Source: Uliginosibacterium aquaticum (GTDB lineage Bacteria; Pseudomonadota; Gammaproteobacteria; Burkholderiales; Rhodocyclaceae). From it: 64,000 bases of DNA. Below are positions 43,630 through 50,812 of this stretch, one piece after another. Below the pieces are notes generated by a model. The model was not told the DNA's origin, did not search any database, and was given only the letters and a program-made list of their open reading frames with translations. The translations under genes and the position numbers were made by a program. The stretch covers positions 124,001 through 188,000 of the forward strand of contig NZ_JABCSC020000002.1 in the NCBI RefSeq assembly GCF_012972705.2. The letters are read 5' to 3'. Numbering within the stretch: the stretch's first letter is position 1; each line of letters begins with the position of its first letter.

Positions 43630-43646
43630 ACTTCCTGCCTGTGCAT

Positions 43647-44798
43647 ATGCCCCGCCGCCGCATCGCCCACCTCGACATGGATGCCTTTTATGCCTCTGTC
43701 GAACTGTTGCGTTATCCGCAGTTGCGTGGCCAACCCGTCGTTATCGGGGGGCGCAGCGTGGATGCACCACGGCAAACGGGGGATGGCAATTGGCATTACG
43801 CCCGGCTGCGCGATTACGTAGGTCGCGGCGTGATCACCACTGCGACCTACGAAGCCCGCGCGCTGGGAGTTGGCTCCGCGATGGGCATCATGAAGGCGGC
43901 TAGACTTGCTCCCAATGCCGTACTGTTGCCAGTAGATTTCGATGCATATCGCCACTACTCACGCCTGTTCAAGGCCGCTGTACGCGCAATCGCACCACTC
44001 ATAGAAGACCGCGGTATCGACGAGATCTACCTTGACCTCACCGAGCTACCAGGAGAAGCCCGTGCGCTCGGCCAAAGCCTCAAGGATGCGGTGCGCGCAG
44101 CAACAGGCCTCTCCTGTTCCATCGGCATCAGCCCCAACAAGCTGCTTGCCAAGATCTGTTCCGACCTCGAGAAACCGGACGGTCTTACCGTGCTGGAGAT
44201 GGACGAGATTCCCGCTCGGATCTGGCCTCTGCCAGTGCGCAAGGTCAACGGGATCGGCCCCAAAGCCGAGGAGAAATTAGCCGCCCTGGGCATTCACAAC
44301 ATCGGCGAACTGGCAGCCTGCTCTCCGTGGTGGCTGCAAGAGCACTTTGGCAGCAACTACGGGGGCTGGCTCCATGAAGCAGCCCACGGCCGCGATCAAC
44401 GCCCGGTGGTGACCTATTCCGAACCCAAGTCAGTCAGCCGCGAAACCACCTTCGAACGTGATCTGCACGCTCGAACTGATCGCAACCAGCTCTCCGAAAT
44501 TTTCACCCGCCTGTGCCAGCGCGTGGCGGGTGATCTGGAACGCAAAGGCGTGCTCGGACGCACCATTGGAATCAAACTGCGCTACGAAGACTTCTCAACA
44601 GTTACGCGGGATCTGAGTTTGCCCGAGGCCACCGCAGATGCCGGCATGATCCGCCGTGCTGCCGGAGAATGCCTCAAGCGCGTCGAGCTTGGAAAGCGCC
44701 TGCGCCTGCTCGGTGTGCGGGTCAGCCAACTGGAAAGCCGATCACAGCAGAACTCAACGGGCCCGCAGCCGGGCGAGCAAGCCGGCCTGCCATTCTGA
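43647..44798 (+). CDS. dinB: DNA polymerase IV (Y-family translesion polymerase)
   Basis: A 383-aa Y-family polymerase. The catalytic acidic residues are in HLDMDAFYASVE and RGIDEIYLDLT, and the steric gate aromatic is in FYAS. The finger, palm, thumb and little-finger domains are all represented. About 22 residues (VDAPRQTGDGNWHYARLRDYVG region) are inserted before GVITTATYEARALG compared with E. coli DinB. The C-terminal QAGLPF fits a beta-clamp binding motif. ATG 43647 is preferred to GTG 6 bp earlier. It bypasses lesions at the fork; a LexA box was not noticed. Confidence 0.93.
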   Translation: MPRRRIAHLDMDAFYASVELLRYPQLRGQPVVIGGRSVDAPRQTGDGNWHYARLRDYVGRGVITTATYEARALGVGSAMGIMKAARLAPNAVLLPVDFDAYRHYSRLFKAAVRAIAPLIEDRGIDEIYLDLTELPGEARALGQSLKDAVRAATGLSCSIGISPNKLLAKICSDLEKPDGLTVLEMDEIPARIWPLPVRKVNGIGPKAEEKLAALGIHNIGELAACSPWWLQEHFGSNYGGWLHEAAHGRDQRPVVTYSEPKSVSRETTFERDLHARTDRNQLSEIFTRLCQRVAGDLERKGVLGRTIGIKLRYEDFSTVTRDLSLPEATADAGMIRRAAGECLKRVELGKRLRLLGVRVSQLESRSQQNSTGPQPGEQAGLPF

Positions 44799-46805: not shown

Positions 46806-47105
46806 TCAGAGGAAAAACTCTTCCAGACGCTCGAATACGCGACGATTCGCTGCATGACGCTCGACGCGGATCACATCCTCGAGCTTCTCAAGCTGAGCAA
46901 TCATCTGCGGCAAACGCGCATCGTCATACACCAGCAGCCAGATACGGCTCTCCGCCCCATCTCCCACGGGCATGCACAGGATGCCTTCCACGTTAAAGGC
47001 GCGTCTGGCAAACAGACCACAGACGTGAGACATCACGCCCGCATGGTTCTTCACCGTCAGCTCCAGAACCACCTTGTGCACTTGCCCAATCACTTCTGCA
47101 TTCAT
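46806..47105 (-). CDS. ilvN: Acetolactate synthase I small regulatory subunit
   Basis: A 99-aa ACT-domain protein very similar to E. coli Ilv[49 protein letters not shown]. It binds valine and confers feedback inhibition on IlvB. The ATG at 47105 follows GGAGG at 6 nt; a start 12 bp upstream lacks this. The ilvB stop lies 2 bp before it, so the two are cotranscribed and coupled. The sequence belongs to isozyme I (short form), not to IlvH, which is twice as long. Confidence 0.95.
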
Positions 47106-48823: not shown

Positions 48824-48859
48824 ATAAAAAAACCCCGCCCGGCTCGCGCCGGCGGGGTT
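48824..48859 (-). terminator. Attenuator terminator in the ilvBN leader
   Basis: On the minus strand AACCCCGCCGGC pairs with GCCGGGCGGGGTT (one bulge), followed by TTTTTTT. It ends transcription about 50 bp before ilvB. Its 5' half also pairs with the segment at 48882-48896 that contains the leader stop codon, so terminator and antiterminator exclude each other. Confidence 0.88.
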
Positions 48860-48881
48860 GAATCTCTTGAGTCTGACTCGT

Positions 48882-48896
48882 CCCCGTTACGGCGCG
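48882..48896 (-). promoter_or_regulatory. Antiterminator strand of the ilvBN attenuator
   Basis: The minus-strand segment CGCGCCGTAACGGGG (48896-48882) is complementary to CCCCGCCGGCGCG at 48857-48845: CGCGCC pairs with GGCGCG and CGGGG with CCCCG. When a ribosome stalls at the upstream Val codons this pairing should form and block the terminator. A competing GGCG/CGCC hairpin just upstream is the 1:2 structure expected when translation is normal. Confidence 0.75.
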
Positions 48897-48988
48897 TTGC
48901 CGCCTACGCCTACTACTACGCGTACGACTACGACTGCCACAAAAGCGGCAGGGGCAGAGCGCAGGACGGAGCAGGAAACGGAGTTCAC
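48887..48988 (-). CDS. ivbL: IvbL-like valine-rich leader peptide
   Basis: A 33-codon ORF with GTG start ending in AFVAVVVVRVVVGVGGNAP and TAA. Ten of the last 18 residues are Val, and the end matches the E. coli IvbL leader (AAVVVVRVVVVVGNAP). The stop codon lies inside the antiterminator strand, so ribosome position couples to hairpin choice. The start is uncertain: there is no good ribosome binding site, and in-frame TTG/GTG codons upstream exist, but this GTG gives the known length. It senses charged tRNA-Val (and Leu is nearly absent). Confidence 0.8.
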   Translation of the reverse strand: MNSVSCSVLRSAPAAFVAVVVVRVVVGVGGNAP

Positions 48989-49111
48989 GAGAATTGCCAA
49001 ACCGAAGTGAGAAACGCGATCCAATTGAAGCACAGGGGACGACAACACACAAGTGTCCGAAGCGCCCGGAATAACCCTCAGGAAACAGTAGGTTTCATGG
49101 CGGGCAATACT

Positions 49112-50812
49112 TTATATCGTCCTGGCAGCAAGGGTTCTGGCCTTCAGAATTTCTTCATCCCGCAAGCATCTGCGCATGATCTTGCCGACGTTGGTCTTGG
49201 GTAATCCGTCACGAAACTCGACCAGATGTGGCACCTTGTAGCCTGTCAGGTATTGCTTGCAATGGGCAATCAGCTCCTTTTCCGTCAGCCCGGGCTGCTT
49301 GCGCACTACGAAGACCTTAACCGCTTCGCCTGAAAATTCGCTGGGCACGCCAATCGCAGCCACCTCCGCCACGCCCGGATGCGTTGAGACAATATCCTCC
49401 ACTTCGTTCGGATAGACGTTGAAACCGGAAACGAGGATCGTGTCCTTCTTGCGATCAACGATGCGCACGAAGCCCTGTTCGTCAATCAGCGCTACATCAC
49501 CAGTACGCAGATAACCGTCACGGGTCATGACCTGTGCCGTATCGGCCGGCGCATTCCAGTAACCACGCATGACCTGCGGCCCCTTCACGCACAGCTCACC
49601 GGGCTGGCCAAGTGCGACTTCGCAATCATTCTCGTCACGCAGAGAGATATCGGTAGAGGGTACAGGCTGGCCGATCGAGCCGTTGTATTCAGTCTGGTCG
49701 ATTGGGCAACAGCACACGCCGGGTGAGGCCTCAGTCAGACCGTAGGCTTCAATCAGAGTACTTCCAGTCAGTGCGCGCCAGCGCTCGGCAACAGTCTTCT
49801 GCAGCGACATGCCTCCGGAGAGCGACATCCGCAGATTGGAGAAATCCAGGGTCGGAAACTTTGGATGGTTCATCAACGCATTGAACAGGGTGTTGACCCC
49901 CGAAATCACCGACCAGGGATATTTCCCGAGTTCCTTGATGAAGCCGCCCATGTCACGCGGATTGGTGATCAGGAGATTGCGCGAACCGATCATGAAGAAC
50001 ACGAAGCAATTCACGGTCAGCGAAAAGATGTGGTACAGCGGCAAAGCAGTCACGATCAGCTCGCCCCCCCAGCGAAGCCGGGATCCGACCCACACATGGG
50101 CCTGCAGGAGATTGGCAAGAATATTGCCGTGGGTCAGCATCGCGCCTTTGGAAACGCCCGTCGTACCGCCGGTGTACTGCAGGAAGGCGATGTCCTCACG
50201 TGTCACCTCTACCGGGCGCAGGGTCTGCCGTGCGCCCAGACGCAGGCTCTCGCCGAAGCGGCGAGCCCCAGGCAACTGCCAGCGCGGCACCATTTTTTTC
50301 ACCCGGCGCACAACGAAGTCAACCAGAGAGCCCTTGAGCATGCCCAGCATCTCGCCAAGACTGGTGACCACCACATGCCGGACATCCGTGTTTGCAATCA
50401 CGCTCTGCAGGGTATGGGCGAAATTCTCCAGAACCACGATGGCCTCAGCGCCGGAATCCTTTAGCTGATGTTCCAGTTCACGCGGGGTGTAGAGCGGATT
50501 GCAATTGACCACCGTATAGCCTGCACGCAACGCACCGAACATGCATACAGGGTACTGCAACAGATTGGGCATCATCAGAGCGATACGTGCGCCCTTGGGC
50601 AACCCCAGTACGCCCTGCAGGTAGGCTGCGAAGCGTGCAGACAGCGCATCGACCTGACGATAAGTCAGCTCGGCACCCATGTTGATGAAGGCGACTTTAT
50701 CGCCCCACCGTGACACACCACGGGCGAAGAAATCCGCCAGTGAGCTGTATTCAGTCAAATCGATCTCGGCGGGCACCCCTGCCGGATAGCTTTTCAGCCA
50801 GATTTTCTCCAT
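49112..50812 (-). CDS. fadD: Long-chain fatty acid-CoA ligase
   Basis: A 566-aa ANL-superfamily adenylate-forming enzyme that activates fatty acids to acyl-CoA. The AMP motif is [20 protein letters not shown], then [10 protein letters not shown] and the hinge [25 protein letters not shown]; the fatty-acyl signature region and a late Lys in [11 protein letters not shown] are present. This fits FadD rather than acetyl-CoA synthetase. ATG 50812 is chosen (AAGGAAAG upstream); longer frames have no support. A hairpin covers part of the ribosome binding site. It is upstream of the ilv leader but a separate promoter between them is likely. Confidence 0.92.

Follow-up and report, generated by a model that had tools for sequence, protein, structure and literature searches.

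The ilvBN genes of Uliginosibacterium aquaticum are very likely controlled by a ribosome-mediated, IvbL-like attenuator that senses charged tRNA-Val, and the unit composed of this attenuator and the two genes appears to have radiated within the family Rhodocyclaceae and to have passed, attenuator included, to Enterobacterales. The anatomy of the element, its conservation, its pairing potential, and the placing of its control codons were observed in the sequences analyzed here. As a mechanism this attenuator is familiar; the novelty lies in how widely the unit occurs and in the direction in which it probably moved.

The locus lies on the minus strand of the 64,000-nt stretch of U. aquaticum DNA that was analyzed as a whole (henceforth the window), and its features are listed in Table 1. 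A first-pass annotation of the window had assigned to positions 48824-48988 a complete IvbL-type valine attenuator, with a 33-codon ORF, a stop codon within a segment (48882-48896) pairing with the 5' half of a terminator, and a GC-rich terminator hairpin ending in seven T. All of these were recovered at the same positions on the minus strand. The leader peptide reads VNSVSCSVLRSAPAAFVAVVVVRVVVGVGGNAP, of which residue 1 would be Met, and no Shine-Dalgarno sequence was seen ahead of its GTG start. Nine of the ten loci inspected for Uliginosibacterium and the genus g13 share the leader start GTGAACTC, the remaining one (L093) having GTGACC. The candidate promoter is likewise kept in nine of the ten distinct loci of these two genera, in which CTTG and TGCTT[CG]AAT occur with the same spacing, and L093 is again the exception. 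The 5' strand of the antiterminator comprises the end of the Asn codon, the Ala and Pro codons, the stop codon as an internal loop, and the five bases after the stop, and the hairpin with its seven T ends 55 bases ahead of the ilvB start codon. Neither the leader promoter nor the terminator was reported by a generic promoter/terminator scan of the locus, which probably missed the terminator because an unpaired base interrupts the hairpin. The search against Rfam at the gathering score returned no match in the window, and the ivbL region of Escherichia coli was likewise without a match. The sole match at E values up to 1, namely anti-hemB (E = 0.12, 18 of 49.5 bits), was taken as chance.

Table 1. 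Positions of the features of the leader-ilvBN locus in the window.
Feature	Position	Strand	Basis or remark
Acyl-CoA ligase gene	50953-49112	minus	upstream of the leader, co-directional with leader/ilvBN
Candidate leader promoter: TTGTGT, 17 nt, extended -10 TGC-TTCAAT	49024..49052	minus	weak consensus match, 7/12 by eye
Leader peptide ORF: GTG start 48988-48986, 33 codons, TAA 48889-48887	48887..48988	minus	ORF list
Control codons, 9 Val among 12: GTG GCA GTC GTA GTC GTA CGC GTA GTA GTA GGC GTA	48905..48940	minus	
Antiterminator 5' strand: CGCGCCG-TAA-CGGGG	48882..48896	minus	pairs with 48857-48845, 12/12 standard pairs
Predicted intrinsic terminator: hairpin 48859-48831, seven T 48832-48826	48826..48859	minus	sequence and comparison with E. 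coli
ilvB: acetolactate (acetohydroxyacid) synthase large subunit, isozyme I type, 554 aa	47107..48771 (ATG 48771)	minus	NF006016
ilvN: small subunit, isozyme I type	46806..47105 (start probably ATG 47105; ORF list: TTG 47117)	minus	NF006036

The assignment of both structural genes to the isozyme I type, already made in the first-pass annotation, is supported by the curated family models. IlvB scored 1021.1 bits against a cut-off of 870 (NF006016), and IlvN, of which the gene adjoins ilvB and was searched as 47117-46806, scored 160.8 bits against a cut-off of 128 (NF006036). The genome of U. aquaticum encodes a second large subunit, which shows 44% identity and falls below the isozyme-I cut-off. 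The claimed resemblance of the leader to E. coli IvbL holds in part. All of the visible parts of an attenuator are present, and the leader matched the NCBIfam IvbL model (NF007579) with an E value of 4.5e-4 over residues 7-32 of the 32 searched, but its score of 20.1 bits did not reach the curated cut-off of 60. This sub-threshold score bars the curated name IvbL and leaves the mechanism unaffected.

The closest comparison is with the ivbL-ilvBN locus of E. coli (L148, annotated as 'ilvB operon leader peptide IvbL'). The peptide ends compare as AVVVVRVVVVVGNAP against AVVVVRVVVGVGGNAP, the terminator hairpins are identical at 27 of 29 bases and differ at two, and in both loci ilvB and ilvN come after an antiterminator strand of the form GCGCCG-stop-GGG. 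On the other hand, the U. aquaticum leader differs from E. coli IvbL in its GTG start and its N-terminal part, and the genes upstream of the leader are not the same in the two genomes. The Val codons of the U. aquaticum leader are mostly GTA (6/9, against 5/45 in its ilvB), whereas the E. coli run is made of GTG and GTC. The leader attenuators of the trp, his, thr, leu, and phe systems are built from control codons, an antiterminator, and a terminator, each with codons and sequences of its own; the U. aquaticum element follows the same logic with different control codons and sequences. Attenuation ahead of an AHAS operon has also been described for ilvBNC of Corynebacterium and other Actinobacteria (PMC11857589, PMC10272879, PMC1262725), which, as far as those descriptions go, is comparable to the U. 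aquaticum element but concerns other bacteria and another operon.

We counted Val over the 24 codons that precede a stop codon located 60-260 bases ahead of ilvB. None of 5000 dinucleotide-shuffled versions of the 300-base region upstream of ilvB reached the 9 Val in 14 codons of the U. aquaticum leader, and only 2 of them reached even 7 Val; a chance origin of the Val run is excluded. In a redundant collection of type-I loci, 125 of 139 had at least six Val, compared with 6 of 2780 shuffles and none of 56 other loci; one of these 56 had at least five. Eleven of the 56 controls were ilvI-type loci and the others belonged to more remote members of the superfamily; the controls were assembled without L031, L032, L033, and L034 (44-50% identity) and one locus too near a contig end. 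Among the loci taken out, L031, L033, and L034 have 7-8 Val each, so that Val leaders extend beyond the close type-I IlvB sequences. The first-pass annotation had proposed a search for leader peptides before ilvB in related genomes. After deduplication, such a leader with at least five Val was present in 137 of 143 type-I-like loci, L031 and L034 counted in. The remaining six had four Val (L167, L160, L185, L024) or one and two (L198 and L199, respectively). A terminator was found by our scanner in 108 of the 137 loci. The 29 loci in which the scanner found none include L005, L013, and L207, which are enterobacterial and have an unpaired base, and a pattern search for the terminator fits 18 of 19 enterobacterial loci. 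Among the Val codons of the 108 terminator-bearing loci, GTA makes up 478 of 830 within the final 20 codons of the leaders, as opposed to 135 of 4294 in ilvB. This bias may tune the sensitivity of the leader or keep the control region unpaired. The 137 leaders constitute a natural series on the placing of control codons, stop codon, and antiterminator.

Some of these loci deserve separate mention. In five Dechloromonas-like loci (L015, L016, L018, L147, L158), the leader frame extends several codons beyond the conserved GCGCCG or its equivalent and ends with ..HAPSRIG-stop or ..DTPSRIG-stop; the stop has moved and the antiterminator bases are kept. The genome G169 has two type-I ilvB copies (L193 and L198), the latter without a Val leader.

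According to the mechanism that we propose, the leader would be transcribed and translated, and its translation would respond to valine. With valyl-tRNA present, the ribosome would reach the stop codon and cover CGCGCCG-UAA-CGGGG; the terminator would then form, and transcription would end before ilvB. With valyl-tRNA scarce, the ribosome would stall on the Val codons and leave that strand free to capture the terminator's 5' arm ahead of the synthesis of the 3' arm, and RNA polymerase would continue into ilvBN. The pairing that the proposal calls on can be read from the sequence. CGCGCCG (48896-48890) pairs with CGGCGCG (48851-48845), and CGGGG (48886-48882) pairs with CCCCG (48857-48853). The partner, CCCCG-C-CGGCGCG, corresponds to the terminator's 5' arm together with its loop, and all 12 pairs are Watson-Crick. 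As the sequences flanking it on both sides pair, the stop codon becomes the internal loop of the antiterminator. As a pairing potential, the antiterminator overlaps the leader end and would be mutually exclusive with the terminator. The RNA fold of the U. aquaticum element has a z of -4.21 relative to shuffles.

The conservation of the antiterminator was examined on an alignment of 73 of the 108 terminator-bearing loci, which favours pairing because its rows were chosen by the last six leader bases. In this alignment, 95.1% of the cells of the CGCGCCG helix were paired. For the whole antiterminator the figure was 88.0%, and shifting it by 1-3 columns lowered this to 28.8-55.0%. The outer pair of the CGCGCCG helix is C-G in 49 loci and U-A in eight, and the latter perhaps reflects one event since the U-A rows in the alignment are enterobacterial. 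Pairs with changes on both sides were not in excess over shuffles (324/500 as high), and the antiterminator slid by +2 received a covariation score as high as the true register. Covariation on this alignment is therefore weak. The pairing of the terminator on the same alignment (75.3%, and 94.3% when slid by -1, most rows being one column out) was not used as evidence. Among 24 representatives hand-picked for diversity, the cognate pairing of leader and terminator arm was better than the permuted ones (-21.6 vs -19.9 kcal/mol; permutation p = 0.0005). Judged locus by locus, only 44 of the 108 loci have an antiterminator that no more than 3 in 60 shuffles of the same GC-rich strand could equal. 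Three loci, L031, L009, and L101, combine a different leader end with a correspondingly different terminator arm; in L034, by contrast, nearly all mismatched partners pair better than the cognate one.

The effect of stalling was modelled with a ribosome whose footprint of 13 bases begins at the A-site codon and with the free RNA folded as far as the loop, i.e., without the 3' arm. For U. aquaticum, eight Val codons (codons 19-28) were examined as stall sites, and each gave the antiterminator a modelled probability of 0.97-1.0; the value fell to 0.04 at the Gly codon after the last Val and was 0 from there on, the stop included. In the E. coli control, the values at the last Val codons were 0.95, 0.17, and then 0, and stalls before the Val run also gave low ones. 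The model covered the 58 of 108 loci that fit the required patterns, and all 58 had a probability above 0.5 at some Val codon and below 0.05 at the last three codons and the stop. The model by its construction hides the antiterminator close to the stop, and only the placement of the Val run is informative: the last Val codon sits just before the border at which a stalled ribosome would begin to cover the antiterminator strand. Equilibrium folding was rejected as a test of the switch, as the E. coli positive control gave the terminator a probability of 0.87-1.0 at every stall position; in the finished U. aquaticum leader, the antiterminator was ahead at only 4 of 19 positions. The energies of the finished leader fail to show the switch, which would thus rest on the order of synthesis, and the decision would be kinetic.

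We also considered the fate of the leader in the untranslated state, of which the modelled outcome varies with the length of the upstream RNA folded. When 75 or 99 bases before the stop were folded without the 3' arm, the probability of the antiterminator was approximately 1.0 in nine loci of Uliginosibacterium and g13 and 0.94 in eight loci of Enterobacterales. With 140 bases, the medians were 0.48 and 0.94, respectively, and U. aquaticum itself had 0.99. A difference between U. aquaticum and E. coli in the untranslated default, which the stalling model had suggested, was gone for U. aquaticum with the whole leader folded. A candidate protector hairpin in U. aquaticum, made of CGCGU (48922-48918) and ACGCG (48897-48893) and involving the conserved Arg codon, found no support; the letters pair, but its modelled probability was about 1e-6 or less. 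In 36 other loci of the family, the median probability of the antiterminator with 140 bases was 0.035, a low value which hints at a protector hairpin in these relatives, unlike in the U. aquaticum leader.

IlvB sequences above the isozyme-I cut-off were detected in all seven congeners of U. aquaticum, 12 of 29 further genomes of the family, and none of 24 genomes from the rest of the order. Of 199 Rhodocyclaceae genomes, U. aquaticum counted in, 100 possess such a sequence. The corresponding count for the order is 2 of 200, namely U. aquaticum and one other member of its family, and that for the class is 3 of 274 with U. aquaticum counted in (7 of 274 at E 1e-230). In the phylum, 10 of 398 genomes were positive, i.e., U. 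aquaticum and nine members of one family, to which L207, grouping with E. coli at 87% identity, belongs. Other phyla are thinly sampled, as the best 80 of 587 relatives were kept. A Val-rich leader or a fitting terminator before an ilvB-like gene was found in Armatimonadetes (L022), Opitutaceae (L024), Elusimicrobia (L025), Desulfovibrionaceae (L028), Breznakibacter of Bacteroidota (L031), Marinilabiliaceae (L033), and Spirochaetales (L034). Compared with shuffles, the pairing was clear in L022, L025, and L031 (z about -3) and weak in L028.

For the phylogenetic analyses, L197, L030, and near-identical proteins were removed (124 of 149 kept), and the set was thinned to 91 rows including four outgroup rows, 62 of which were subjected to the careful IlvB tree. 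In this tree, the seven enterobacterial rows formed one clade (100/100), which was nested with the seven Uliginosibacterium rows and L088 (100/98). The next enclosing clade added four rows of the family (100/97) and the one after that the Azoarcus-like rows (100/99), while the Dechloromonas-like rows of the family branched outside the clade holding the enterobacterial and Azoarcus-like rows. The nearest outgroups of the enterobacterial IlvB are thus Rhodocyclaceae, and Uliginosibacterium itself is not one clade. The quick tree of 91 rows with ilvI-type outgroups gave the same nesting. The IlvN tree alone, from which L102, L201, and L025 were left out for want of a recognisable ilvN, placed the enterobacterial rows likewise but weakly (1 of 56 inner branches starred); the combined IlvB+IlvN set was also without L028, L026, and L196. 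The best tree obtained when the family was held together without Enterobacterales was worse by 67.9 log units for IlvB (p-AU = 0.0045) and by 63.0 for IlvB+IlvN (p-AU = 0.00077; quick tree, 56 rows), in a test that was set up after the first tree had been seen.

Two nucleotide markers, both of which were defined after inspecting the sequences, agree with this nesting. The leader-end marker GGCA[AG][CT]GCGCCG was found in 17 of 19 enterobacterial loci, which are not independent of one another, 8 of 8 Uliginosibacterium loci, and 2 of 2 g13 loci, and nowhere else (0/5, 0/96, and 0/14). An extra purine in the 3' arm of the terminator was present in 18 of 19, 6 of 8, and 2 of 2 of these loci, respectively, and elsewhere in 0/5, 1/96, and 0/14; in the last two groups, 30 and 9 loci, respectively, lacked a pattern-fitting hairpin.

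The simplest account of these data would be a single passage of leader, terminator, ilvB, and ilvN from Rhodocyclaceae to Enterobacterales, and the ancestor of the enterobacterial copy was most likely taken, attenuator included, from a lineage next to Uliginosibacterium. We propose that the AHAS I operon of E. coli is probably a betaproteobacterial import, in which enzyme genes and valine attenuator moved as a self-regulated unit from a Rhodocyclaceae lineage near Uliginosibacterium, with related units in L022, L025, L031, and L028. The first-pass annotation had described an enterobacterial-style locus within a betaproteobacterium. The betaproteobacterial nature of the host appears to be right, but the tree points to the opposite relationship, with the enterobacterial genes inside the Rhodocyclaceae radiation. 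Of the two histories that it had offered, namely deep conservation and transfer of the whole unit, the latter is favoured. The import of the operon, if true, would mean that a gene unit is able to carry its own amino acid sensor between genomes. Such attenuators, as far as known, require only tRNA, ribosome, and polymerase, and the sensor can for this reason travel with the enzyme.

Other histories of the unit were weighed against the same data. AHAS I and its leader could have been present in the common ancestor of the order Burkholderiales and Enterobacterales and lost almost everywhere else, in line with the anatomy conserved in both groups and the scattered occurrence in the class (the seven genomes at E 1e-230, U. 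aquaticum included) and in other phyla. Such vertical descent, however, predicts a clade of the family without Enterobacterales, which both p-AU values reject, and it demands losses in nearly the whole order, where the only two positive genomes are from the family of U. aquaticum; we regard it as improbable. The close likeness of leader end and terminator in the two groups would equally be produced if Enterobacterales had given the unit to Uliginosibacterium. This direction is hard to reconcile with a tree in which all seven enterobacterial rows make one clade within several nested clades of the family and have members of the family as their nearest outgroups, and seems to us slightly less credible still than vertical descent.

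The element could also act in a manner different from attenuation. Termination at this locus is predicted from sequence, which leaves room for control at the level of translation or mRNA stability; we hold this to be very unlikely, as a hairpin with a run of seven T, for which a mutually exclusive alternative exists, ends 55 bases before the ilvB start. Lowest of all we rate the idea that the leader ORF encodes a functional small protein and that the terminator serves only to stop transcription coming from the acyl-CoA ligase gene upstream, even though that gene is co-directional and ends at 49112. The pairing between leader end and terminator arm is kept, both partners differing in sequence in L009, L031, and L101, and Val-rich leaders were not seen before the 11 ilvI-type loci.

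The transfer from Rhodocyclaceae bears on an earlier view of AHAS I. In the part of PMC5727371 that deals with it, AHAS I is presented as gammaproteobacterial apart from two exceptions and as having originated by duplication. The spread of the type-I sequences over half of the family genomes surveyed (100/199) and the nested position of the enterobacterial copy disagree with the model as presented there. Among the matches listed in our literature search, which took in titles and the starts of abstracts and had subscription papers, including comparative studies of proteobacterial attenuators, outside its scope, no earlier report of an IvbL-type attenuator or AHAS I in Rhodocyclaceae was recognised. 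PMC2965389, searched for statements on ilv and on leader peptides, has no text on ilv.

Two minor observations were made in passing. The Serratia loci have two leader ends, VGNAP and VGDAP (L004, L027, and L035 vs L013), and L004 and L013 are found on different enterobacterial branches of the IlvB tree. On the plus strand of the window, a 385-aa ORF at 43641-44798 resembles, by eye, a Y-family DNA polymerase.
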